A stretch of DNA of 64,000 nucleotides from Microtetraspora niveoalba (lineage in GTDB: Bacteria > Actinomycetota > Actinomycetes > Streptosporangiales > Streptosporangiaceae), in NCBI RefSeq assembly GCF_001570405.1, contig NZ_BBYM01000019.1:64323-128322 (forward strand), given 5' to 3'. A program made the translations under genes and the position numbers. The notes beneath the pieces were generated by a model. That model was not told the origin of the DNA, made no database searches, and saw only the letters and a program-made list of their open reading frames with translations. Within the stretch, counting starts at the first letter, position 1; each line of letters opens with the position of its first letter. Shown in pieces: positions 1 through 12,340 of this stretch.

Positions 1-1011
1 GCCGTCGCCGCCTGCCTGAGCCGGCACACCGAAGGCGCGCCTCCCGAGACGCCGCGGCGGTGGCGCCGCCGCCTGGTCACGGATCTGTGGCGCTCCGGGG
101 CGTTCGTGGAGGCGGCCGTACTGCGCTGCGCCGACGGGGACGAGACGTGGCGGCCGCGCCCGCCCCTCGCGGTGGCGGTCGCCGCCAGGGACACCGGACA
201 CAGCGCGGAGGCGCTGGTCAACGCGGTCCTGGACCCCGGGCTCGGCCACGACGAGCCGGCCGCCCTGCTCGCGGTCGCGGTCGCGGAGACCCTGGTCCGC
301 GGTTCCTCCGACGGGCGCGACGCCGTGGAGCTGCTGGCCCCGTCGGTGTCGGGTCCGTGGGCGAAGCTCGGCGACCTGGCGGCGGACTATCACGCGCGGA
401 CGTTCGGCACCGAGGCCGCCGACCTGCTGAACGCCATCGCGGGCGAGCGCCGCCGGCGGCACGGGCTCGTCGCGGCGTGGGAGGCCGTGGACCTGGCGCT
501 GGAGCAGTCCCGTCCGGTGCCGGTGGACATCGACGGCGCGAAGCGCACGCACGCCGCGCTGTTCAAGGACAGCGGGATCTTCGGCATGCTGGGCGACGCG
601 GCGGCCCGGCGGGACGTGGCCGGGCTGCGGAACCTCGTCGCGACCTCCTTCCCCGGCGGGCACGACCCCGAGGAGCTGGTGGGCGGGCTGGTCGACGAGA
701 AGTGGCGCGAGGTCTCACAACGTTCCGATCTGCTCATGGGCATGTACCGGGGCAAGTACCTGGGCCGGCTGGCGAAGGTCGTGTCGTCCGTCCGGCGTCT
801 GACCGGCCTCGCCGCCGAGGAGCACCGGCTGCGCCACCGGCCCGCGCTGCTCGACGCCGCCCGCGCGCTCGCCGACGGCTTCCACGCGATGCGGGCGGAC
901 CTGGCCGCTGAGGCTGATCGGCTCGACCCCACGGCCGGGCCGGTCGTGGCCGCGGTCCTCGTGGACCTGGACCGGCTGTTCGCGGGCACCGAGCAGGAGG
1001 AGCATCAGTGA
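1..1011 (+). CDS. Unknown helical protein, 5'-truncated by the window edge
   Basis: The reading frame is open from base 1 to the TGA at 1009-1011, so the true start lies left of the window; the first internal ATG is at 106. At least 336 residues are visible. They are rich in Ala, Leu, Arg and Asp and look almost entirely alpha-helical, with no signal peptide, membrane segment or motif I recognise. The stop overlaps the next gene's GTG start (GTGA, 1008-1011), so the two are probably translated together and act together. The partner is a GHKL-ATPase protein, so this may be a sensor, adaptor or scaffold for it. That role is inferred from position only. Coding is certain from frame and codon bias; the function is unknown. 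Confidence 0.75.
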   Translation, partial: AVAACLSRHTEGAPPETPRRWRRRLVTDLWRSGAFVEAAVLRCADGDETWRPRPPLAVAVAARDTGHSAEALVNAVLDPGLGHDEPAALLAVAVAETLVRGSSDGRDAVELLAPSVSGPWAKLGDLAADYHARTFGTEAADLLNAIAGERRRRHGLVAAWEAVDLALEQSRPVPVDIDGAKRTHAALFKDSGIFGMLGDAAARRDVAGLRNLVATSFPGGHDPEELVGGLVDEKWREVSQRSDLLMGMYRGKYLGRLAKVVSSVRRLTGLAAEEHRLRHRPALLDAARALADGFHAMRADLAAEADRLDPTAGPVVAAVLVDLDRLFAGTEQEEHQ

Positions 1012-3512
1012 TCGACGACGTGGTGCGGGACTGGCCGGGCCTGTGGCGCCATCCCGACCTGGCCGCGGCCCTGACGCGGGACGAGGACCGGCCCGACCTG
1101 GCCGGGTTGCTCCTTCGCGGCCTGGCCGACCCGCTCACCGTCGAGGAGAGCGCCGGACGCCTGATCGCGGGCGGCGAGTTCGCGACCGCGGAGGAGCTGC
1201 ACCAGAGGGCGCGGCTCGCCGCGTCGGCCGCCAAGGAGATCGCCGACCGGCTGGACCGGGCCCGCGCCTCGGCGGCGGTCCGGATCGACCATGACGTCGC
1301 GGCGCTGAGGCGCAGGGCGGCGGGCGCGGGCGTCCCGCTGGAGGCGGACGTGCGCGGCCTGACCGAGGCGGCGTGGCGGCGGCTCGGGGACGCCGAGGCC
1401 ATGCTCGGCGAGCTGGACGCGACCGTGCGCGCGCTGGAGGAGGAGGCGACGCGGGAGCTGCGCCGGTCCCTCGCGGCGCGAGCCGCCGGCCTCGACCAGC
1501 GGGACCGCGCGGTCCGGGCGTGGATGGAGTCGTCCGAGGCGTGCGTCCAGGCCAGGGAGTTCGAGACGGCGCGGGCGCTCATCGGCGACGGCCCCCTCCA
1601 CCGTCACGCGGACACGGAGCCGCGGCTGGTGCCCCGGCTCAGGGAGGCCTGGCCGTACGACGAGGACGACCTCGAAACGATCATGTCGTGGTACTTCGAC
1701 CCGGCCGCGCCGTGCCCTCCGGGGTTCGCCGTCTGGCGTCCGGCGGAGGACGACGCGGCGGCGTGGGCGCTGCTCGGCGCCCTGCGCGACGCGGCGCGGG
1801 ACGTGAACCGGGACAGCGCGGGCGCGCTGCTCGGCGCCCTGCACGAGCTCCTCGGCACCGACCACCCCTGGCTGGAGCTGGACGACGCCGGACACGGGGT
1901 CATGACCAGGATCAGCCTTCCGGACAACCCGCGCCTGCCGTGCCTGTCCTTCCTCGGCAGGCGCGGGCTGGCCACCTGGGTCTCGAACCCGCGCCGCCCC
2001 CACGGCCCGCCGCCGTGCGACGACGGCCCGCTGCTGTGGATCTCCCCGTCCGTACGCGGGCACCACGTGATCGCTGACCGGGCGTCGACGCGCGGCGTCG
2101 CCATGCTCGACGCCGCCTTCCTCCTGCGGCTCGCCGCACCGCTCGACGGGCGGCGGGTGGAGCCGCCGGTGCGGCTGGTCAACCTGCTGCGCGCGGTCTG
2201 CGCCCGCCTGTCCCCCGACCAGGTCATGAACTGGCGCGAGGCGGCCCGGCACTCGCGGCGGCACCACCTCTCCTGGCTGCTCCACCTGCTCGGCGTCTCG
2301 GCGGACGGCGTGACGGTGGACGCGGTGCGCTACGAGACGGGCGGCAGCCCCGCCGTCCTGCGCGGGTTGCTGAACGAGGCGCTGCCGGAGCCCCGGCACG
2401 ATCGGCCGCGCGCGATGACGCTGGACCTGGCCCTGCTCAACGAGCTGCGCGAACGCGACGCGTGGCGGACCGCCGCGGCCGCGGAACTGCTCGCCCCGCA
2501 CGCCGGCGACCGCGTCGCGATGGCCCTGCTGTGGACCGCGGCCGACTTCGACGACGACGAGTTCACGCTCGGCGACCTGTGCCAGGGCCTCAGGTCGATC
2601 ACCGAGGCCGAGGTGGCGGAGGTCGTCGCCGAGTCGGAGCTGCCCGGCGCCGCCGAGTCCCTCGTACGGGCGGGGCTGTTCGAGAGGGCGCCGGGCGGGC
2701 GCCTCCGGCTCCCGCAGAACGGGATCCGCAGGCTGCTCGCCGAGAGGCGGCCCGGCCACGTGCCGCGCGATCAGGCGGTGCTCGCCGCGAGGGACGTCTA
2801 CGAGGACTACCGTGACACCGCCGCGCGCCGCATCGCCGGTGTCGGGGACCGGATCGTCCGCATGATCGGGCACAAGATGAACGGCAGGCGCGCGGTGCTC
2901 AGGAGCGCGCTGGAAGACGGCCGCGCCGAGCAGGCGCTGAGCGTGGTCGACTCGCTGCCGTCCATCCACGAGCTGTACGCCAGGGCGACGGCCCCGGAGC
3001 GGCCGTGCCGGCTGACCGAGATCCTGAGGAACCCGCTGAGCGTGGCACAGGGCGACAGCGAGGGCATGCTCCGGTGCGAGCTCACCGGCGGTGACGGGAT
3101 GTTCGTCCACGCGAACCCCTGGCTGCTCGGCGAGTGCTTCTTCAACCTGTTCGACAACGCCCGGCTGGCCGTACGGGAGACGGGGCGCGAGTTCGGCACG
3201 ATCAGGGTGACGGTCGCCGTCCGGGCGGACGCCCCGGACCTGTGCGTGATCGATGTCGAGGACTCCGGCGTCGGGCTCTCAGCGGAGGACCAGGAGCGGC
3301 TGGCGCGCGGGGACCGGTTCAGCACCCACGGCGGCAGCGGAGTCGGGTTCCGCACCGCCCGGTCGTGGTTCCGCGCCTTCCGCGGGCGGCTGGAGATCGC
3401 GGGCAGGTCCGCCGCCCTGGGCGGCGCCCACCTGCGGGTGACGCTTCCGCTGACCGCTCCCCCGTCCGCTCCCCCGTCCGCCGCCTCGGCCGCTCCCCCG
3501 TCCGGGACGTGA
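1008..3512 (+). CDS. Large cytosolic histidine-kinase-like protein with C-terminal GHKL ATPase
   Basis: An 834-residue protein starting at GTG 1008, overlapping the previous stop by 4 bp. The last ~145 residues are a GHKL ATPase: an N-box with Asn713 and Asn717 (NLFDNA), a G1 box Asp752-Ser-Gly-Val-Gly756, and a G2 box GGSGVG at 775-780. Just upstream, His622 in IGHKMN lies in a helical hairpin placed like a DHp phosphoacceptor; this assignment is tentative. The first ~550 residues lack transmembrane, PAS or GAF features. Residues ~60-170 look coiled-coil, and residues ~520-600 resemble a winged helix. A receiver protein is encoded convergently at 3553-4824, making it a natural phosphorelay partner. 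The ATPase assignment is firm; kinase activity and input signal are inferred. The C-terminal tail is a Pro/Ala/Ser repeat. Confidence 0.8.
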   Translation: MIDDVVRDWPGLWRHPDLAAALTRDEDRPDLAGLLLRGLADPLTVEESAGRLIAGGEFATAEELHQRARLAASAAKEIADRLDRARASAAVRIDHDVAALRRRAAGAGVPLEADVRGLTEAAWRRLGDAEAMLGELDATVRALEEEATRELRRSLAARAAGLDQRDRAVRAWMESSEACVQAREFETARALIGDGPLHRHADTEPRLVPRLREAWPYDEDDLETIMSWYFDPAAPCPPGFAVWRPAEDDAAAWALLGALRDAARDVNRDSAGALLGALHELLGTDHPWLELDDAGHGVMTRISLPDNPRLPCLSFLGRRGLATWVSNPRRPHGPPPCDDGPLLWISPSVRGHHVIADRASTRGVAMLDAAFLLRLAAPLDGRRVEPPVRLVNLLRAVCARLSPDQVMNWREAARHSRRHHLSWLLHLLGVSADGVTVDAVRYETGGSPAVLRGLLNEALPEPRHDRPRAMTLDLALLNELRERDAWRTAAAAELLAPHAGDRVAMALLWTAADFDDDEFTLGDLCQGLRSITEAEVAEVVAESELPGAAESLVRAGLFERAPGGRLRLPQNGIRRLLAERRPGHVPRDQAVLAARDVYEDYRDTAARRIAGVGDRIVRMIGHKMNGRRAVLRSALEDGRAEQALSVVDSLPSIHELYARATAPERPCRLTEILRNPLSVAQGDSEGMLRCELTGGDGMFVHANPWLLGECFFNLFDNARLAVRETGREFGTIRVTVAVRADAPDLCVIDVEDSGVGLSAEDQERLARGDRFSTHGGSGVGFRTARSWFRAFRGRLEIAGRSAALGGAHLRVTLPLTAPPSAPPSAASAAPPSGT

Positions 3513-3552
3513 CCCGCCCGGCGTCCCGGGCGCGGCGGCGCGGCGGCCGGGC

Positions 3553-4824
3553 TCAGGGGTGCATCCGCCACTCGTGCCGGAACCGTCTCACGAGGCGCTC
3601 GGCGACGTCGAAGGCGCCGTAGCGGACCTCGTGGTCGGCCTCCTGGTACTTCGCCCCCGCCCCGGCCAGCCGCCCGGCCCCGACACTGCCGTCCGGCAGG
3701 CTCTCCCGGCGCCTGCGGACCTCCCGCCACGCCGACGCCAGGAAGACCTCCAGGCGCTTGCGCCGTGCGGTCTCGTCCTCGTCCGTCAGCAGCCTGGCGG
3801 CCTCGCGAACGCCCTCGTGCCAGGCCGGGTTGGTCTTGGGCACGATGTCGACCAGGCGGTACTCCTCCATCGTGGCCTGCTGGCGACGGTGGCTGACGTC
3901 GGTCGCGTTCGCGGTGACCAGCGCGGCCGGGACGTCGGTGAAGTCGCGCAGGTGCGCGGCGATGACGTACCCCCTCCGGTCGTTCAGGGTGCCGGTCAGG
4001 TGGAGGTCGATCAGCGCGCCGTCGAACGTGTGCAGCCGGGGGTCGTCGATCATCCGCTCCCACTGCTCCAGCACGTCCTCCCCGGTGAGCAGGGTGCAGT
4101 CGTAGTACGGCCTGAGCAACCTGTGGATGTCCCGGCCGACCTCCACGTCGTCGTCCACGATCAACAGGCGCTTGCGGCCTCCCGGCCTGATCCGGTCGAC
4201 GATCGGGTCGTGCGGGAAGCAGGCCGTGAAGGCGCCCAGCCGGTCGAGGGCCGCGCGCGCGGCCGGGTCCATCGCGAGGACGTGCCGGACGAGGGTGTCC
4301 CGCGCCTCGATGAGGGGGCGCCACCAGTGCGCGGCGACGCCGGGGTGGATCTCGCGCGGATCCGCCCGCCACAGGCCCATCAGTTCGTCGATCCGCCCGG
4401 GCCCCGTGTCCCGGAGCCCTTGCACGCCCTCCACGAACCGGATCGCGTCCACCCGGCAGCGGGCGGGATCGAGCCGGTAGCAGAGCCGGCCGCCGCTTCT
4501 CAGCGACTCGACCGGCACCCCGAACTTCGTCTTGAGATCGCTGGCGTGCTTCTCGACCGTCTGCTCCTTGATGCCCTTGCCCTGTTTGAGGCTCTCCCAG
4601 AGGTCGCGGCGGGGAACGGGGCGGCCCGCGAGGGCGAGGAGGAGCAGGACGGCGGCGGGCCGGCCGGCGAGCGCGACCACCTCTCCGCCGACGCGAACGT
4701 TGATCTCACCGAGTACGGCGATTTCGACCGATGGGACCTGATCCACATTCCCACAGTAAAACAGGCCGGGAATATCCGCTGAAATGGCGGTGAAATCGAC
4801 CGGGAGCCCCGAGCTGCGATTCAT
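3553..4824 (-). CDS. SARP-type winged-helix regulator with C-terminal receiver domain
   Basis: A 423-residue protein. Residues ~32-120 form an OmpR/SARP-like winged helix (LGEINVRV near the start, then RRDLWESL and EKHASDLKTKFG). A helical stretch to ~200 resembles a short BTAD-like linker. Residues ~217-345 are a receiver with acidic Asp224-226, phosphoacceptor Asp273 (ALIDLHL), Thr304 and Lys330, so the phosphorylation site is intact. This order (DNA-binding first, receiver last) is the reverse of classical response regulators. The ATG at 4824 is preferred over GTG 4746 because codons 1-9 are recognisably conserved in the decayed copy near 12504. It converges with the GHKL protein and diverges from the TIR/NDT-S1 gene, which it may regulate. 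Domain calls are firm; targets are inferred. Confidence 0.82.
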   Translation of the reverse strand: MNRSSGLPVDFTAISADIPGLFYCGNVDQVPSVEIAVLGEINVRVGGEVVALAGRPAAVLLLLALAGRPVPRRDLWESLKQGKGIKEQTVEKHASDLKTKFGVPVESLRSGGRLCYRLDPARCRVDAIRFVEGVQGLRDTGPGRIDELMGLWRADPREIHPGVAAHWWRPLIEARDTLVRHVLAMDPAARAALDRLGAFTACFPHDPIVDRIRPGGRKRLLIVDDDVEVGRDIHRLLRPYYDCTLLTGEDVLEQWERMIDDPRLHTFDGALIDLHLTGTLNDRRGYVIAAHLRDFTDVPAALVTANATDVSHRRQQATMEEYRLVDIVPKTNPAWHEGVREAARLLTDEDETARRKRLEVFLASAWREVRRRRESLPDGSVGAGRLAGAGAKYQEADHEVRYGAFDVAERLVRRFRHEWRMHP

Positions 4825-4924
4825 CCCGCTTTCAGGACACGTCCGCTGCTATTTCAGCCCGCCGGAGCCACCATCTGCGTATGGGCCTGTCAGGAGGCCG
4901 CAACCAGGAAAGAGGGCAAAGCAC
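4825..4924 (+). promoter_or_regulatory. Divergent promoter/operator region between the receiver gene and the TIR/NDT-S1 gene
   Basis: This 100-bp gap between divergent starts must hold both promoters. Around it lie GCTGAAAT at 4778-4785 and its inverted copy ATTTCAGC at 4851-4858, a possible operator pair overlapping the 5' end of the receiver gene. The block 4801-4856 recurs at about 82% identity at 12481-12536. An AGGAAAGAGG ribosome site sits just before the ATG at 4925. I see no canonical -35/-10 pair with confidence. Confidence 0.45.
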
Positions 4925-6214
4925 ATGAACGAGAAGGGGCTCACGAGGGACCGGGAAATGGTCCAGGGGAACGTCTTCGTCGCCATGCCGTACGGCGTGA
5001 AGGCGTGCCACGGGGATCCGGCCTTCAACTTCGACGACTTCTACCGCGACGTCTACAGCGAGATCATCACCGAGATCGGCCTGACGCCGGTCCGGGCGGA
5101 CTCGATCTACGGCGCGGGCACGGTCGACGAGAGCATCTGGCGCGGCATGCAGGAGGCCGAGATCGTCCTCGTCGACTTCTCCACCCGGTGCGCGAACGTG
5201 ATGCTGGAGTACGGCCAGTGCCGGATGCTCAACAAGAAGATGGTCTACCTCACGCAGGACGAGGCCGACATCCCCAGCAACGTCCGCGGCCTGCGGTACA
5301 TCCGCTACGACGACGACTGGCGCAGCATCACGAAGATGCGCACGGAGCTGCGGAACCAGCTCCTCGCGCTGCGCAGGGAGCCGAACGTCGAGATGAAGCT
5401 GGTCCCGATGCCGACCGGCGGCACCGTGCCGGCCCCGGCCACCGTGCTCAACGTGACCGAGGACCTGGTCGTCGTGACCACCGAGGGCGGGCGGCTCGGC
5501 GTGCTCGCCGCCACGGACGTGGACTACGCGCGGATCCTCCCCGACATGCGGCGCAGGTTCTCGGTCGGCGAGCGCCTCAGCGGCGCCTTCGCCACCGACG
5601 CCGAGGGCGGCCAGCGCTACACCCTGCTGGCCGGCAGGCAGAACCCGTGGCCCGCGCTGACCAGGGACTACGCCCCCGGGCGGGTCTTCACCGGCCAGGT
5701 GTGCAACGTCGTCCCCGGGGTGGGCGCCTTCGTGCGGGTCGCGCACGGCGTGAACGGGAGGGTCCCCGCGTACTTCCTCGCCGACCTGCCGGCCGTCGGG
5801 GTCGGCACGGAGATGGAGGTCATGGTCGACCGGATCGACGCCGAGAGGCGCAACATCCTGCTCGCGCCGGTCGGGGCGGGGCGGCACCGCCCCGCGGGCA
5901 GGCCGTCCGCCTCCCCGGAGCGCCGGGACACGGTGAGCGGGCCGCGGGTCGGCGAGCGCCTGGACGGCGAGGTCACCAAGGCCGAGCCGGAGAACGGCCG
6001 CTCCGGCGGCTACGTCCTCCTGAAGGTGCCCGGCCGCGAGCGCCCGGTGATGCTCCACTGCAGCCGGATGTCCGCCGAGCTCCGCGCCGACCTCAACCGG
6101 AACGAGATCGAGATCGGCGAGCTGATCTACGTCGAGGTGGTCGGGGTCGACCCGGTCCGCGACCGCGTGACCGTCCGCGACATCCCCGAGGAGGCCGCGG
6201 CCGACGCCGCCTGA
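4925..6214 (+). CDS. TIR/nucleoside-deoxyribosyltransferase-like domain fused to S1-type OB repeats
   Basis: A 429-residue protein starting at ATG 4925 (AGGAAAGAGG upstream); an earlier in-frame ATG at 4784 lies inside the neighbour's coding region and lacks a good ribosome site. Residues ~16-160 are a Rossmannoid domain opening with VFVAMPYG, followed by ESIWRGMQEAEIVLVDFS and Asn91-x3-Glu95-Tyr-Gly97. This is the pattern of the nucleoside 2-deoxyribosyltransferase/TIR-like superfamily, where the Glu is usually catalytic on a glycosidic bond. Three OB/S1-like units follow: about 168-242, 250-317 (FTGQVCNVVPGVGAFVRV) and 341-420. S1 domains bind RNA, so an RNA-recruited or ribosome-associated NAD/nucleotide hydrolase is possible. 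No membrane segment is present. Family placement is fairly secure; activity is inferred. Confidence 0.78.
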   Translation: MNEKGLTRDREMVQGNVFVAMPYGVKACHGDPAFNFDDFYRDVYSEIITEIGLTPVRADSIYGAGTVDESIWRGMQEAEIVLVDFSTRCANVMLEYGQCRMLNKKMVYLTQDEADIPSNVRGLRYIRYDDDWRSITKMRTELRNQLLALRREPNVEMKLVPMPTGGTVPAPATVLNVTEDLVVVTTEGGRLGVLAATDVDYARILPDMRRRFSVGERLSGAFATDAEGGQRYTLLAGRQNPWPALTRDYAPGRVFTGQVCNVVPGVGAFVRVAHGVNGRVPAYFLADLPAVGVGTEMEVMVDRIDAERRNILLAPVGAGRHRPAGRPSASPERRDTVSGPRVGERLDGEVTKAEPENGRSGGYVLLKVPGRERPVMLHCSRMSAELRADLNRNEIEIGELIYVEVVGVDPVRDRVTVRDIPEEAAADAA

Positions 6215-6230: not shown

Positions 6231-7232
6231 TCAGATTCCCGCGTTGTGGCAGGCGAGGTGGTGGCCGTCGCCGACCTCGCGCAGCAGCGGCTCCTCCTCG
6301 GCGCAGCGCGCGGTGGCCAGCGGACAGCGGGTGCGGAACCGGCACCCGCTGGGCGGGTTCAGCGGCGACGGCAGCTCGACGGTCCCGTCCCCGGCGACGC
6401 CGGGCGCGGGCCGGTCGGCGGTCCCCGCGCCGAGGTCGGCCTCGGGCACCGAGGCGAGCAGCAGCCGCGTGTACGGATGCAGGGCCGAGGCGGCGAGCCC
6501 GGCCGACGGCGTGACCTCGCACACCTTGCCGAGGTACATCACCATGATCCGGTCGCTGATGTTCTTCACCACGGCGAGGTCGTGCGCGATGAAGACCATG
6601 CTCAGGCCGTAGCGCGTCTTGGTCTCCTCCAGCAGGTTGAGGATCTGGGCCTGCACGGAGACGTCGAGGCTGGAGACGGGCTCGTCGCAGATCAGCACCC
6701 GGGGGTCGAGCATGAGCGCGCGGGCGATGCAGATCCGCTGGCACTGCCCGCCGGACAACTCGTGCGGCCGCCGGTCCCACACGACGGCCGGGTCGAGCCC
6801 GACCGACGCGATCATCGACTCGACCTGGTCCCGGCTCGGCCGGGTGCCCCAGATCGACAGGCCCTCGGCGACGAGGTCCTTGACCCTGCGGCGCGGGTTC
6901 AGCGAGGAGACCGGGTCCTGCAGGATCATCTGCATCTTCCTGCGCCGGGTGCGCAACGCCCTCGGCGGCAGTCCGGTCAGCTCGGTCCCGTCCAGCAGCA
7001 CGGAGCCCGACGTGGGCGGCGGGAGCTGCATCACGGCGCGTCCGGCGCTGGACTTGCCGCACCCGGACTCGCCCAGGATGCCCAGGGTCTCGCCGTCGAG
7101 CAGGTCGAAGCTCACCCCGGAGACCGCGTGCACCGTCTGCCCGCGCCCGGCCGGGAACCGTACGACGAGGTCGTCGACGACCAGGACGCGGTCCTGGCCG
7201 GAGCGCATGTGGGCGGTGCCGGTGCCGGCCAT
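6231..7232 (-). CDS. Oligopeptide/dipeptide ABC transporter ATPase (OppF/DppF type)
   Basis: A 333-residue cytoplasmic ATPase energising the importer. It has Walker A GESGCGKSS, a Q-loop at ILQDPVSSLNPR (the DPxxSLNPR signature typical of Opp/Dpp ATPases), the ABC signature LSGGQ, Walker B VLICDEPVSSLD and H-loop IAHDLA. The C-terminal Cys-bearing tail (CRFRTRCPLA) is the oligopeptide-transporter extension that often binds an iron-sulfur cluster. The start ATG at 7232 shares one base with the previous stop (TGATG), so it is translationally coupled to the sister ATPase. It is the last gene of a five-gene operon on the minus strand. Confidence 0.92.
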   Translation of the reverse strand: MAGTGTAHMRSGQDRVLVVDDLVVRFPAGRGQTVHAVSGVSFDLLDGETLGILGESGCGKSSAGRAVMQLPPPTSGSVLLDGTELTGLPPRALRTRRRKMQMILQDPVSSLNPRRRVKDLVAEGLSIWGTRPSRDQVESMIASVGLDPAVVWDRRPHELSGGQCQRICIARALMLDPRVLICDEPVSSLDVSVQAQILNLLEETKTRYGLSMVFIAHDLAVVKNISDRIMVMYLGKVCEVTPSAGLAASALHPYTRLLLASVPEADLGAGTADRPAPGVAGDGTVELPSPLNPPSGCRFRTRCPLATARCAEEEPLLREVGDGHHLACHNAGI

Positions 7233-8383
7233 CAGGAGCCTCCTGCGGTGACGGGACGGACGGGATGGTGGCAGGCGAAAACGCGGGCCCCCTCGCCGCC
7301 GGGCTCGGAGCCGGACACGCGCGCGGCCTCCCGGCCGTTCCCTGGGCCGTTCTCCGGTCCGCCCCCCGGGCCGGGCTCTGGGCCGAGCACCGGTGACGCC
7401 TGCCGGCAGTCCTCCCGCGCGTACCGGCAGCGCGGCGCGAAGCGGCACCCGGGCGGGGGCGCGACCATGTCCGGCGGCGCGCCGCCGATCGCCTCCAGCC
7501 GCGAGTGCGGCGGGTGGTGCAGGCGCGGGACCGACGCCAGCAGCGCCTCCGTGTACGGATGACGCGGGGCGGCGAACAGGGCGTCCGCCGCGGCGAGCTC
7601 CACGATCCGTCCGGCGTACATCACGGCGACCCGGTCGGCGCGCCCGGCGACGACCTGGAGGTTGTGGCTGACCAGGATGATCGCCATGCCGAGCTCGTCC
7701 TGGAGCCGCCCGAGCAGGTCGAGGATCTGCTTCTGCACGGTCACGTCGAGCGCGGTGGTCGGCTCGTCGGCGATGAGCAGCTTGGGGGAGTTGGCGAGCG
7801 CCATGGCGATGACCACGCGCTGCCGCATCCCGCCGGACAGCTCGTGCGGGTACTGGTCGAGCCGGCGCGCGGGCTCGGGGATGCCCACCAGGCGCAGCAG
7901 TTCCTCGGCGCGGGCGCGGGCGGCGGCCCGGGAGAGCCCGCCGTGCCCGCGCAGGCTCTCGGTCAGGTGGAGGCCGATCTTCTTGACCGGGTTGAGCGCG
8001 GTCATCGGGTCCTGGAAGACCATGCCGACGCCGGTCCCCCACAACTCGCGCCGCGCGGCGGCGGTGAGGGCGTGGACGTCGGCGCCGTCCACGAGCACCC
8101 GGCCGGAGACCGTCATGGTGGAGCCGGTGGTGTAGAGGCCCATGATCGTACGGCCGAGCACGGACTTGCCCGATCCGGACTCGCCGACGATGCCGAGGGT
8201 CTCCCCCGCGTCGAGCGTGAGGGAGACGCCGTCCACCGCCTTCATGTCCCCGCGCGGGGTGTGGATCTCGGTGCGCAGGTCGTCGACGACCAGCAGCGGG
8301 GCCCGTCCGGCGTCCGGAGCGCGGTGGCCCGAGGTGTGGTGGCCCGAGGTGTGGTGGCCCGAGGTGTGGTGGCGCTGACTCAT
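7232..8383 (-). CDS. Oligopeptide/dipeptide ABC transporter ATPase (OppD/DppD type) with His-rich N-terminus
   Basis: A 383-residue ATPase with Walker A GESGSGKSV, signature LSGGMRQR, Walker B LLIADEPTTALD and H-loop VSHNL. The C-terminal oligopeptide domain carries CRFAPRCRYA. It pairs with the downstream ATPase to form the heterodimeric motor. Oddities: the N-terminus before the ATPase core contains a tandem His-Thr-Ser-Gly-His repeat encoded by three perfect 15-bp units, and there is a Gly/Pro-rich linker near the C-terminus. The His repeat could bind metal or be neutral expansion. The stop overlaps the next ATG (TGATG). Confidence 0.92.
   Translation of the reverse strand: MSQRHHTSGHHTSGHHTSGHRAPDAGRAPLLVVDDLRTEIHTPRGDMKAVDGVSLTLDAGETLGIVGESGSGKSVLGRTIMGLYTTGSTMTVSGRVLVDGADVHALTAAARRELWGTGVGMVFQDPMTALNPVKKIGLHLTESLRGHGGLSRAAARARAEELLRLVGIPEPARRLDQYPHELSGGMRQRVVIAMALANSPKLLIADEPTTALDVTVQKQILDLLGRLQDELGMAIILVSHNLQVVAGRADRVAVMYAGRIVELAAADALFAAPRHPYTEALLASVPRLHHPPHSRLEAIGGAPPDMVAPPPGCRFAPRCRYAREDCRQASPVLGPEPGPGGGPENGPGNGREAARVSGSEPGGEGARVFACHHPVRPVTAGGS
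8323..8367. repeat. Three perfect 15-bp tandem repeats within the OppD-type gene
   Basis: The unit GGTGGCCCGAGGTGT is present three times head to tail (8323, 8338, 8353) and encodes the repeated His-Thr-Ser-Gly-His on the minus strand. The unit length is a multiple of three, so copy-number change keeps the frame. Confidence 0.95.
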
Positions 8384-8390
8384 GGCACTC

Positions 8391-9467
8391 CTAGAGCTTC
8401 GCCTGACGGGGATCCCACCGCTTCCTCGCCTTCTCCCCGATCAGGTTGAACGCGAAGACGGTCAGGAAGAGCGTGACGCCGGGAACGAGCACGATGTGCG
8501 GATAGTCCTGGAAGGCGTTGCCCTCGCCTTCGGCGATCATGTTCCCCCAGGACGGGTCCGGCGGCTGGATGCCGAGGCCGAGGAAGCTCAGCGACGCCTC
8601 GGCCACGATCAGCACCGACACGATGACCATGCCGTACGACGCGAGGGGCAGCAGCACGTTGGGCAGCAACTCCCGGCCCATGACCCGCCACCGCGAGGCG
8701 CCCATCGCCTTGGCCGCGAGCACGAACTCCCGCTGGGCGAAGGTCAGCGTGCTCGCCCGGGCCATCCGGATCATGCTGGGCAGGGCGAGCAGCGACAGGG
8801 CGATCGCGATGTTGCGCAGGTTCGGCTCCAGCACGGTGCCGAGCGCGATCAGCAGGATCAGCGGCGGGACGGCGAGCAGCGAGTTGGTGAACACGCCGGT
8901 GACGGTGTCGGTGAGCCGCCGGAAATATCCGGCCAGGATGCCGATCCCGCCGCCGACCACCATGCCGATGGCGACCGCGCCGATCGAGACCAGCAGCGAG
9001 GCGCGGGCGCCGTGGATGATGCGCGCCAGCAGGTCGAGCCCGAAGTTGTTGGTCCCGAGGGGGTGCTCGGAGAACAGCGAGGGCGGCGCCATCGCGGGCG
9101 CGTCGATCGTCTTCGCGATGTCGCGGTACTCGCCGAGGGGCAGGACCGGCGCCAGGATCGCGGCCAGCACCACGACGACCAGCCACGCCAGGCAGAGCCA
9201 GAACATGAGGTCGAAGGAGCCGCCGAAGACGCCCCGGCCGAGCCGCGCGAGTCCCGCGTACGCGAGGGCGAGGCCGGCGGCGAACGCCAGGAAGACCACC
9301 CAGCCGGGGGCGGGGAGCACGGCCGGCGCGAGGGCGGCCAGGGCGATGCCCGGGACGGCGAGGCCGAGCCCCGGCAGTGAGAGGTGCCGGGTCGCGGGCC
9401 GGCGCGCGTCCCCGGCGGGGCGCGGGCCGCTCCCCGCCGGGTCTGGAAGCTCAACGATGTCAGACAT
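8391..9467 (-). CDS. Oligopeptide/dipeptide ABC transporter permease (OppC/DppC type)
   Basis: A 358-residue inner-membrane permease. After a short cytosolic N-terminus it has hydrophobic segments near residues 30-90 and then the binding-protein-dependent transport domain. The EAA loop region reads EFVLAAKAMGASRWRVMGRELLPNVL, shown here as part of a longer conserved stretch, and LGTNNFGLDLLARIIHGAR is the DppC-specific LGTDxxGRD-like motif. The start overlaps the upstream permease stop by 8 bp (9460-9467), indicating coupled expression in the operon. Confidence 0.92.
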   Translation of the reverse strand: MSDIVELPDPAGSGPRPAGDARRPATRHLSLPGLGLAVPGIALAALAPAVLPAPGWVVFLAFAAGLALAYAGLARLGRGVFGGSFDLMFWLCLAWLVVVVLAAILAPVLPLGEYRDIAKTIDAPAMAPPSLFSEHPLGTNNFGLDLLARIIHGARASLLVSIGAVAIGMVVGGGIGILAGYFRRLTDTVTGVFTNSLLAVPPLILLIALGTVLEPNLRNIAIALSLLALPSMIRMARASTLTFAQREFVLAAKAMGASRWRVMGRELLPNVLLPLASYGMVIVSVLIVAEASLSFLGLGIQPPDPSWGNMIAEGEGNAFQDYPHIVLVPGVTLFLTVFAFNLIGEKARKRWDPRQAKL

Positions 9468-10413
9468 GCGCCCGCCTGATTCGTGGGTCGAGATAGCCGT
9501 ACGACAGGTCGATCAACGCGTTGGCCAGGACGTAGATGAGCGCGACGACCAGCACGGCGCCCTGCACCATGGGGAAGTCGCCCTTGTCCGCCGACCCGAT
9601 GATCAGCGTGCCCATGCCGGGAAGGGCGAACAGGTACTCCACGATGACCGTGCTGCCGATCAGCCGTCCGAGGCTGATGCCCAGCAGCGTGATCAGGGAG
9701 AAGGACGAGGGCCGCAGCGCGTCGCTGAACAGCACGCGCACCGGGGACATCCCCTTGGCCCTGGCGGCGAGGATGAAGTCCTCCTGCAGCGTGGTGATCA
9801 GGTCGCCGCGCAGGATCCGGGTGAACATCGCGGTCTCGGCCAGCGCGATCGTCAGCGCGGGCAGGAACGCGTGGTGGAGGTTGTCGCCCAGGCTCTCGCC
9901 GAGCCGCACCCACTCGGCCCTGGGGAACCAGCCGAGCTGGTTCGAGAAGACCATGATGATCAGCAGGCCGGCGAGGAAGCTCGGCACCGAGAGGATGCCG
10001 AAGGTGCCCGCGCCGACGATCCGGTCCACCCGGCCGTCGGCGTGGTAGGCCGACCACATCGCCAGCGGGATCGAGACGACGAGGGCCATGGCGAGCCCGA
10101 GGACGGCCACCTCCGCGCTGACCGGGAGGGCCGCGGCGATGCGTTCGGTCACGTCGCTGTTGGGCGGGATGAGCGAGGTGCCCAGGTCGCCGTGGAGCGC
10201 CGACCCGAGCCAGCTTCCATACCTGACCAGGAACGGGTCGTTCAGCCCCATCTCGTCGCGCAGCGCCGCGTATTCCTCGGCCGTGTGCCCCTCGCCGAGC
10301 ACGGTGATCGCGGGGTCGCCGGGGGTCAGGTCCACCAGCGCGAAGGTGCCCACGCTGACGACGAACAGGACCGCCGCGATCTCGGCCAGCCGTTTCAGCA
10401 CGCTCCATGCCAT
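9460..10413 (-). CDS. Oligopeptide/dipeptide ABC transporter permease (OppB/DppB type)
   Basis: A 317-residue permease with six predicted membrane spans. I use ATG 10413 (MAWSVLKRL) because AAAGGAG lies upstream and the N-terminus then matches the family; the frame stays open to 10497 but that extension is Arg-rich and untypical. The DppB signature FALVDLTPGDPA follows the first span, and the EAA loop (ILAARAKGMSPVRVLFSDAL) is present. It follows the substrate-binding protein gene across a ~210-bp gap holding a strong hairpin, so its expression is probably lower than that of the binding protein. Confidence 0.9.
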   Translation of the reverse strand: MAWSVLKRLAEIAAVLFVVSVGTFALVDLTPGDPAITVLGEGHTAEEYAALRDEMGLNDPFLVRYGSWLGSALHGDLGTSLIPPNSDVTERIAAALPVSAEVAVLGLAMALVVSIPLAMWSAYHADGRVDRIVGAGTFGILSVPSFLAGLLIIMVFSNQLGWFPRAEWVRLGESLGDNLHHAFLPALTIALAETAMFTRILRGDLITTLQEDFILAARAKGMSPVRVLFSDALRPSSFSLITLLGISLGRLIGSTVIVEYLFALPGMGTLIIGSADKGDFPMVQGAVLVVALIYVLANALIDLSYGYLDPRIRRAHV

Positions 10414-10590
10414 GCCGGCCGCACTCCTTTCCTCGTCTTTCCTCGCCGCACGCACGTCACGCACACGCGCCGCAGGCCGGGCGCGGACATGGCGCACGCG
10501 CGGGGTTCATGCCGGGAGCCGCGCCCGGCGGGACGGCCCGCGTGTCACGGGGCGGGCCTGGTCGCCGGGCGCGTCGCCTCCCTGTCAGCC

Positions 10591-10625
10591 GACCCGGCCG
10601 GCCGGCCGGGTGAGCCGGCCGGGTC
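10591..10625 (-). terminator. GC hairpin after the substrate-binding protein gene
   Basis: A perfect 12-bp inverted repeat (GACCCGGCCGGC at 10591-10602 and GCCGGCCGGGTC at 10614-10625) overlaps the stop codon of the binding-protein gene. Such hairpins between the binding protein and permease genes usually stabilise the upstream mRNA or cause partial termination. No T-run follows, so full termination is unlikely. Confidence 0.6.
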
Positions 10626-12252
10626 AGCCGGCCGAGGCGATCCAGGCGTCATCGAGAAGGATCATGCTGTTCACGGTGCCCTCGACTCCGTGGACGCTCT
10701 TCTGCCAGGTGAGGAACTCGGGGGTCGGCCCGTAGACGAGGGCGGGGACGTCCTTGTTCCACTGCTCCTGGATCCGGCCCATGACCGCCCGCTGCTCGTC
10801 CTCGGTCTCGGCGACCTGGAACTCGTCGATCAGCGCGTCCATCTCGGGGCCGGTGTGCATGCCGACGCTGAGGTTGCCCTTGCTGTGCAGGGTCGCGAAC
10901 ATCCGCCCGTACGGTCCGGCCTCGCGCCAGCTGATGCCCCACCCGGCGACGTCGTAGTCCTTGTTCACCGACACCTTGGTGATCTGGTCGGCGACGGAGC
11001 GGACCAGGTCCAGCTCGACCTGGAAGCCGACGCTCTCCAGCATCGACTTGATCGCGAGCGCGGTGGCGCGGGCGGAGGGGTCCTGGCGGCCGAGGTAGGT
11101 GACCTTCCCGTCGAAGCCGTCGGCCTTCGCCTGCTTGAGCAGCTCCCTGGCCTTGTCCGGGTCGTACGGCAGGGACGTGGCGGCGGTGTGCCAGCGCGAG
11201 AAGCCCGGGAAGACCTCGGTGCCGGCCACGCCCGCACCGTTGTAGGCACGCTGGTAGATCACCTCGGGCTTGATCGCCTGGAACATGGCCTGGCGTACGC
11301 GGGGGTCGGCTCCCGGGCGGCCCTCGGAGGCGTTGATGACGCCGACGTTGCCCAGCGCGACCATGTTCATGTACCCGGGGAACCCGGCGGCCAGTGCCTT
11401 GTCGATGAGCTGCGGGTCGCGGAAGAAGGCGGCCTGGGCGCCCCCCGACGTGAAGCTGTCCAGCAGCGCGTTCGGGTCGGTCATGTAGATGACCCGGATC
11501 TTGTCCAGGTTCGGCCGGCCGTCCCAGTAGTCCTCGCGGGCGTTGAGCACGGTCTCCTCGTGCGCGGCGTAGCTGCCGAAGGTGAACGCCCCGGCCCCGA
11601 CGGGCTTGAACGCGCCGCCCTCGTCCGACGACCTGGCGACGATCATGCCCGGCCCCGTGGTCAGCATGTACGGGAACGTGGGCCACTTCTTGGCCAGCTT
11701 GAAGACCACGGTCGAGTCGTCCGGGGTCGTGATGGAGGTGACGTTGTCCTTCCAGAGCCGCGCCTCGTCGGCGCCCTTCTCGACGTACCGGTCGAGGCTC
11801 CACTTGACGGCCTCGGCGTCGAGGGCCGTGCCGTCGCTGAACTTGACGCCGTCGCGCAGCGTGAGGGTCCAGGTCTTGTAGCCGTCGCTCGGTTCGAGCC
11901 CCTTGGCGAGCTGCGGCCGCACCTCTCCGCTCGTGGTGTCCCAGCGCATGAGCACGTCGTAGATCGCGGCCATCTCCAGGCCGCCGGTGGAGCCGGCCAC
12001 GATGGTCTGCGCGGGGTCGAGCACGGCGGCCTCGGCGTAGGCGCCGAACGTCAGCGTGCCGCCCTTGACCGGCTCGCCGCCGGAGTCGTCACCGATCATT
12101 CCGACCTGGTACGTGGACGGGGTCGGCGCGGCGCTCCTGCCGGCGGCGGAGTCCTTGCCTCCTCCCGGGGACGACGCGCACGCCGCGGCCAGGGCCGCGA
12201 CGACGAGGAGTCCGACGGCCGGACGCAACCGCGTCTTGGTGCGAGGCTTCAT
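10624..12252 (-). CDS. Lipoprotein substrate-binding protein of oligopeptide ABC transporter (SBP family 5)
   Basis: A 542-residue protein from ATG 12252, with GGAGG 7 bases upstream; an earlier in-frame ATG is not supported by a ribosome site. The signal peptide ends in a lipobox (ALAAAC) followed by a Gly/Ser/Pro-rich linker. The mature part begins with VKGGTLTFGAYAEAAVLDP, a family-5 binding-protein N-terminus, and contains a typical LRDGVKFSDGTALDAEAVKW segment. It captures peptides or similar ligands outside the membrane and feeds the permeases encoded next. It is the first gene of the operon. The real substrate cannot be read; co-regulation with the catabolic operon at 13601 hints at a ligand linked to that pathway. 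Confidence 0.9.
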   Translation of the reverse strand: MKPRTKTRLRPAVGLLVVAALAAACASSPGGGKDSAAGRSAAPTPSTYQVGMIGDDSGGEPVKGGTLTFGAYAEAAVLDPAQTIVAGSTGGLEMAAIYDVLMRWDTTSGEVRPQLAKGLEPSDGYKTWTLTLRDGVKFSDGTALDAEAVKWSLDRYVEKGADEARLWKDNVTSITTPDDSTVVFKLAKKWPTFPYMLTTGPGMIVARSSDEGGAFKPVGAGAFTFGSYAAHEETVLNAREDYWDGRPNLDKIRVIYMTDPNALLDSFTSGGAQAAFFRDPQLIDKALAAGFPGYMNMVALGNVGVINASEGRPGADPRVRQAMFQAIKPEVIYQRAYNGAGVAGTEVFPGFSRWHTAATSLPYDPDKARELLKQAKADGFDGKVTYLGRQDPSARATALAIKSMLESVGFQVELDLVRSVADQITKVSVNKDYDVAGWGISWREAGPYGRMFATLHSKGNLSVGMHTGPEMDALIDEFQVAETEDEQRAVMGRIQEQWNKDVPALVYGPTPEFLTWQKSVHGVEGTVNSMILLDDAWIASAG

Positions 12253-12340
12253 ACGCTTCCTCCAATAAGCCACCCGAAAACGCACATACGGGCGGACAGG
12301 AAGCGAGAGAATCAGGACAGATCATTATTAGTTCCCTCAT

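Follow-up and report, generated by a model that had tools for sequence, protein, structure and literature searches.

A long form of the type I Mokosh defence locus in Microtetraspora niveoalba with a candidate histidine-to-aspartate relay and a TIR-S1 protein

We analysed a 64,000-nucleotide stretch of the Microtetraspora niveoalba genome (contig NZ_BBYM01000019.1, positions 64,323 to 128,322; hereafter "the window"), which begins within a defence locus. This locus belongs to type I Mokosh, in a form with a long MkoB, and carries an add-on of three genes, encoding a protein with a histidine-kinase-type end (protein B), a winged helix-turn-helix (wHTH)-receiver regulator, and a protein that joins a TIR/NDT-like domain to S1 sequence (TIR-S1). 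The two Mokosh core genes sit upstream on the same contig, just outside the window, and the window cuts the locus in half. A preliminary description of the first 6,214 positions had proposed an undescribed module; this was too strong, since the genes are the tail of an extended form of a named defence system. As judged from sequence comparison, the best reading of the locus is that of a Mokosh system in which a His-Asp relay switches on a second effector, and we consider this reading somewhat probable.

The Mokosh core was recognised from near-full-length matches to PADLOC profiles. MkoA is a protein of 1250 amino acids that matches PDLC03920 over residues 69–1230 (826.6 bits, E 1.1e-248), with a kinase-like domain and a superfamily 1 (SF1) helicase (AAA_11 and AAA_12). 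The kinase domain is matched weakly, with Pkinase at E 0.01, under the cut-off. Active kinases carry HRD and DFG motifs, for which MkoA of this locus has HRNL and RFE, respectively, and its kinase domain is therefore probably inactive. MkoB matches PDLC03922 (534.1 bits, E 1.9e-160) and has two PLDc_2 stretches, in an architecture of a wHTH (a label assigned by eye), a phospholipase D (PLD) nuclease and a long helical tail. The start of mkoB overlaps the stop of mkoA by 4 bases. The N-terminal part of MkoB (797 amino acids; L005:11456-13838) lies upstream of the window, beyond a run of 484 N inside mkoB (L005:13839-14322), a scaffold gap or mask that ends directly before window position 1; the C-terminal part occupies positions 1..1011 of the plus strand. 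In four relatives (L042, L045, L046 and L047) both parts form one open reading frame (ORF) of 1102–1130 amino acids, and the two MkoB matches are only 3–9 nt apart in L042, L043, L045 and L046, indicating that the true gap at the N run is close to zero. Judged from these relatives, the length of the N run is not real, and almost nothing of mkoB is missing there. The single ORFs of the relatives also led us to reject a reading of the window's first gene as an independent helical protein. It is not a complete gene and encodes the C-terminal third of MkoB.

The core genes stand in the order of type I Mokosh, first the kinase-like and SF1 helicase gene and then the one for the PLD nuclease. By contrast with four short-type loci (L054–L057), which have two genes and an MkoB of 460–587 amino acids, MkoB here is ~1100 amino acids long and is accompanied by the third gene, B, the receiver regulator and TIR-S1. 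No B, receiver or TIR-S1 match was found in these four loci, save for an S1-like stretch at the C-terminus of the short-type MkoB of L057 (L057:11656-13437, minus strand; E 3e-7 to the TIR-S1 profile). In two long-type loci (L051:17010-19991, minus strand; L052:2-3400, plus strand), we also observed an AAA/NACHT-type (STAND-like) NTPase gene with WD40 repeats that lies immediately ahead of mkoA and overlaps it.

Protein B (1008..3512, plus strand) is an 834-amino-acid protein with a helical N-terminal part and a C-terminal histidine-kinase-type region, as defined by Pfam, PDB profiles and alignment. HATPase_c covers residues 707–816 (E 3.5e-12; 47.2 bits versus a Pfam cut-off of 26.4), and an alignment of 16 B proteins places His622 within GHKMN, the N box at 713, G1 at 751 and G2 at 775. 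These results bear out the earlier identification of a GHKL protein with N, G1 and G2 boxes and a candidate phospho-His622. The best solved-structure profile matches were sensor histidine kinases (ZraS, FixL, CckA, KdpD), and neither Hsp90 nor MutL was among the PDB profile matches listed (60 of 64); we therefore rejected an Hsp90- or MutL-like GHKL assignment. Pfam recognised no HisKA/DHp family and no sensor domain in protein B. The start of the B gene overlaps the stop of mkoB by 4 bases (GTGA), and MkoB and B form one ORF in L043 and L044 (1967 and 1618 codons without a stop). Because the genes overlap and two natural fusions exist, the arrangement suggests physical contact between B and MkoB.

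The regulator gene is convergent to B (3553..4746, minus strand). Its ORF is open to ATG 4824; the start is probably GTG 4746, because the matching start of the relative L042 has a stop three codons ahead of it. A receiver occupies the C-terminal end, with acidic pocket, phospho-Asp, Thr and Lys intact: D225, D273, T304 and K330 are invariant in all 10 aligned rows, in agreement with the intact receiver (Asp273) first described, even though Pfam Response_reg reaches only 16 bits (cut-off 30.2). The "SARP" label rests on weak indirect wHTH profile matches (residues 31–121) and on the operator-like repeats described below; no BTAD match was found in the regulator at E ≤ 1. One relative has a different arrangement: beside the Mokosh locus of L046, a receiver is fused to a NERD nuclease and a protein kinase, which replace the wHTH (L046:14544-17279, minus strand). 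A review table, in the excerpt available, gives NERD under Mokosh type I (PMC10952713).

We next compared the locus across genomes. Protein B is rare. In the class sample it was found in 1 of 296 genomes, the window's own, at E ≤ 1e-15, in a protein search that misses distant copies (G174, G231 and G243 were missed though their loci have B), and in the family sample in 10 of 297 genomes at E ≤ 1e-10. One of the ten (G563/L050) is an unrelated kinase; in the other nine, the window's own included, B lies beside MkoA. At E ≤ 1e-150, a long-type MkoA was present in 13 of the 341 genomes of the family, and MkoA in 24 of 296 class-sample genomes at E ≤ 1e-60, with eight matches nearly full length (the window's own, L051–L053 and four of the short type). 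A scan of genome contigs with the MkoA alignment kept 80 loci, drawn in by generic helicase motifs. Six of these match the front part of MkoB, including the one locus, L058 of Streptacidiphilus sp. ASG 303, that has the MkoB tail, B, the regulator and full-length long MkoA. Seventeen long-Mokosh loci were thus assembled from the family sample, the class sample (L051–L053) and the genome scan (L058); the comparison of 16 loci leaves out L140, whose contig ends after MkoB, and L050, the unrelated kinase. B was found in all 16 comparable loci, with HATPase_c in 14 of the 16 B proteins, and in none of the plasmid searches.

The comparison links the kinase to the receiver. The aligned His is present in 10 of the 16 B proteins, and these are exactly the 10 loci with a receiver gene; none of the six others has it (Fisher p 1.2e-4, uncorrected for kinship). 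L051 has a His four columns off the aligned position, where its nearest relative, L052, has Gln, and was scored as having no aligned His. No receiver was found by tblastn or hidden Markov model (HMM) in the six within the stretches fetched, about 5–8 kb beyond B. These receiver-less loci fall in three places on the MkoA tree. They comprise L044 and L048, in which B is cut short, beside a type I restriction-modification gene and beside FHA/PP2C/RodA-like genes (by eye), respectively, and L051–L053 and L139, in which the ATPase lacks the aligned His.

The clade formed by the B proteins of L051–L053 and L139, which keeps the ATPase with neither the aligned His nor a receiver, is what would be expected if the GHKL end of B were a chaperone- or STAND-like conformational switch in the MkoA/MkoB complex and the His were structural. 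The AAA/NACHT-type gene next to mkoA in L051 and L052, both loci without a receiver gene, points the same way. However, in the window's group the His is present in 10 of 10 and always with a receiver, and the best PDB profile matches of B are sensor histidine kinases, so that we regard a purely conformational role as quite improbable. L044 and L048, which retain MkoA, MkoB and the N-terminal part of B without kinase end or receiver, speak for hitch-hiking, in which an ordinary two-component system and TIR-S1 adjoin Mokosh in a defence island without joint function and B is only a third Mokosh subunit. Against this, the kinase end is an integral part of B, a protein whose gene overlaps mkoB or is fused to it, and His and receiver occur together in 10 of 10 loci versus 0 of 6, across B proteins that are only 26–73% identical to the window's and across two actinomycete families (the window's, and Streptomycetaceae for L058). 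We consider hitch-hiking unlikely.

The region between the regulator and its divergent neighbour contains operator-like repeats. A direct-repeat pair, CGCTGAA/CGGTGAA, has a spacing of 11 bp (4776..4797, plus strand; lag-11 count in this region, 5), and an oppositely oriented half-site pair, TTTCAG, with a spacing of 22 bp lies on the effector side (4830..4857, minus strand). We measured 7-mer recurrence at lags 8 to 40 in nine intergenic regions between wHTH-receiver and divergent genes. Lag 11 gave 54 positions, and every other lag gave 0–24 (24 at lag 22, 14 at lag 33). Dinucleotide shuffles of the nine regions gave a mean of 4.7, with none of 500 reaching 54, and the lag-11 density was 25.8 per kb versus 3.6 per kb in 46 control intergenic stretches. 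The repeats are significant singly in five of the nine regions: the window's own, L043, L049, L138 and L141, where 1, 0, 0, 0 and 7 of 300 shuffles, respectively, reached the count. The repeat core is CTGAA in the window's locus, L042, L049, L141 and L058, and all of these but L058 have TTCAG on the effector side; in L042 and L049, TTCAG recurs at 11-bp spacing and a third time 22 or 24 bp beyond. Other repeat words occur in L043, L045, L047 and L138. The spacing is that of SARP regulators of the AfsR/PimR type, for which excerpted text describes operator direct repeats and a classical site of 11 bp, made up of a heptamer and a 4-nt spacer (PMC5930380). The regulator described here differs in having a receiver and no BTAD match, and in its presumed target, a putative immune effector instead of an antibiotic cluster. 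Lag 11 was not raised upstream of mkoA in 10 loci (7, versus 1–42 at other lags from 9 to 23), and we rejected control of the Mokosh core by the same repeats. Likewise, no lag-11 repeats were found upstream of the NERD-kinase-receiver gene of L046, which is without the wHTH.

The proposed effector, TIR-S1, is encoded divergently from the regulator (4925..6214, plus strand). The open frame runs from ATG 4784, but the gene more likely starts at ATG 4925, from which relatives align. The protein had been described as joining a TIR/NDT-like domain (Asn91, Glu95) to three OB/S1 repeats. Numbered from ATG 4925, Asn91 and Glu95 stand, as does one firm S1 stretch (residues 250–313, E 9.9e-10); three repeats are not borne out, since a second S1 appears only at the lax limit of E ≤ 1 and the C-terminal OB match is weak (E 0.056). 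A TIR/NDT assignment is suggested by weak profile matches: the PADLOC TIR effector matches the window's copy at E 2.7e-5 and 5 of 8 TIR-S1 members at E ≤ 0.01, and at E ≤ 0.1 Pfam NDT matches three of the eight and CAP12-TIR one (best E 0.033 and 0.046). Glu95 is kept in 7 of the 8. Known TIR effectors (CBASS TIR, CAP12/Pycsar TIR) and NDT-like domains share these weak matches and the conserved Asn and Glu. TIR-S1 differs from them in its S1/OB fusion and, if the relay operates, in a control that would be transcriptional rather than by cyclic nucleotide.

TIR-S1 is divergent from the regulator in the window's locus, L043, L045 and L047, and also in L042, where the frame is without its middle, about residues 57–312 (L042:15576-16145). 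In the other four wHTH-receiver loci a candidate short hydrophobic ORF takes the divergent slot instead: 88 amino acids in L049, 98 in L058, 59 in L138 and, depending on the start, 130–151 in L141. Only the L049 and L058 ORFs are alike (E about 1e-4 to 1e-3). These short ORFs, together with an 8xMP gene found after TIR-S1 in two Mokosh loci, L045 and L047, and in the Mokosh-free L146 (by Pfam in L045 and L146; in L047 by 73% identity to L045), could mean that TIR-S1 is not the killer and instead produces a nucleotide signal to open a membrane protein, either 8xMP or the short hydrophobic proteins. We find such signalling doubtful: no 8xMP match was found at the window's locus, L042 or L043, the candidate short ORFs stand, in the loci compared, where TIR-S1 is missing, and the L138 and L141 ORFs resemble neither one another nor the L049/L058 pair.

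The distribution of TIR-S1 bears on whether it belongs to Mokosh at all. A profile search of 341 family genomes was swamped by ribosomal S1 (330 of 341 matched, with 5 candidates scored per genome), and we retained eight matches that span nearly the whole profile, together with one broken copy (G480) and one fragment (G324). Thus, among the matches listed, near-full-length TIR-S1 occurs eight times in 341 genomes, four of them with long-type Mokosh (the window's genome, G511, G365 and G517). The other four (L143–L146) are in loci without Mokosh and in genomes without a match to MkoA of the long type, the type checked. Separation from Mokosh in 4 of 8 copies and the broken copy in L042 are both points in favour of the hitch-hiking described above. 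In three of these four non-Mokosh loci, TIR-S1 is beside a histidine kinase (of membrane type by eye), whose HATPase_c is above the Pfam cut-off, and a protein with a receiver below it (L143:7173-12046, E 0.001; L144:10426-14873, E 0.0059; L146:7611-12121, E 0.054). For L145, inspection of the gene list showed no kinase-receiver pair, and HMM found no receiver. Matches in other collections were distant, with TIR-like matches in 15 plasmid records and one in a viral scan. A TIR-S1-like N-terminal domain was also observed fused to TPR-S and a metallophosphoesterase (L148:8467-10809).

The preliminary description had the kinase acting through the regulator on TIR-S1. This order of control has gained comparative support, from the 10 loci with His and receiver versus the six without, the 11-bp repeats and the kinase-receiver pairs of three of the four non-Mokosh loci, and it stays a proposal. 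As to co-occurrence in other actinobacteria, His-bearing B accompanies a receiver in 10 loci, but TIR-S1 is also found away from B (unlinked in half of the listed near-full-length copies), and a characterised family covers the two upstream genes.

We propose that the helical part of B joins or contacts MkoB, and that the MkoA/MkoB complex would be triggered on meeting foreign RNA or DNA. The histidine-kinase end of B would then autophosphorylate on His622 and pass the phosphate to Asp273 of the regulator, both residues being present. The phosphorylated regulator would bind the 11-bp-spaced direct repeats observed in the divergent intergenic region and switch on transcription of TIR-S1, the putative second effector, which would probably cleave NAD or nucleotides while its S1/OB part kept it on RNA or ribosomes. 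In some relatives a candidate short hydrophobic protein takes this slot, and in another the receiver is fused to NERD and a protein kinase. The relay thus looks like a plug-in that gives helicase-nuclease immunity a transcriptionally controlled back-up effector. The evidence is evenly poised on the broader claim that a histidine kinase built into Mokosh turns on, by a His-Asp relay and at the level of transcription, exchangeable second effectors (TIR-S1, small membrane proteins, NERD-kinase), with two-component signalling serving as the wiring of innate immunity and not for environmental sensing.

Several observations weigh against a Mokosh relay with TIR-S1 as its effector. The TIR/NDT assignment does not reach Pfam cut-offs, the residue matching Glu95 is Lys in L144, and TIR-S1 of L042, its middle lost, is probably inactive. 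The receiver and wHTH of the regulator match profile libraries weakly. Structure models of TIR-S1 and protein B were unusable (mean predicted local distance difference test score, pLDDT, 45.6 and 42.1, respectively). Receivers were sought only within the fetched stretches, and a single 3'-end deletion may account for the loss in L044, and another for that in L048, in which case the count overstates the weight of the joint loss as evidence. With regard to the repeats, the intergenic regions were cut by hand and the lag test was made after the repeats were noticed; L138 supplies 23 of the 54 lag-11 matches; the heptamers vary between loci; and L058, L042, L045 and L047 are not significant alone (21, 53, 52 and 300 of 300 shuffles, respectively, reach the count). 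Lastly, an 11-bp repeat is also present before TIR-S1 in L143, whose regulator is not SARP-like.

Accounts of phage defence usually place its action after translation, through second messengers, proteolysis or conformational switches. A link from Mokosh, through a relay, to a second protein that may kill the cell would be a new kind of wiring for a system of this type. If true, immunity and two-component signalling would be joined in one defence complex, equipped with a histidine kinase, a receiver and an operator of its own. Mokosh would gain a third subunit, and immune activation could be read directly from the phospho-receiver and the TIR-S1 promoter. B with its His, a receiver and a divergent slot also gives a search rule for finding new effectors. 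The kinase and regulator have the hallmarks of two-component systems (His, N, G1 and G2; receiver Asp, Thr and Lys; a regulator gene next to the kinase and divergent from its presumed target), and differ from them in that the kinase is encoded in a helicase-nuclease immune operon and the receiver is C-terminal on a SARP-like wHTH protein. Among the matches listed from the open-licence PubMed Central literature, nothing joined Mokosh to a receiver or kinase; in the portions of text available, "mokosh" and "histidine kinase" shared a paper only in unrelated places (PMC12421847, PMC13340146). Degradation of viral transcripts by Mokosh is described in one excerpt (PMC11291487). Another describes a Schlafen RNase fused to a minimal histidine kinase and a wHTH beside BREX (PMC12839542). 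As far as that excerpt goes, this system likewise has a histidine-kinase domain attached to a defence system; there the kinase is fused to the RNase, whereas here it is in a Mokosh-linked protein with a separate receiver.

Beyond the module, at positions 6231-12285 of the window, we observed genes for an ABC transporter of peptide type (two ATPases, two permeases and a binding protein), recognised by eye.

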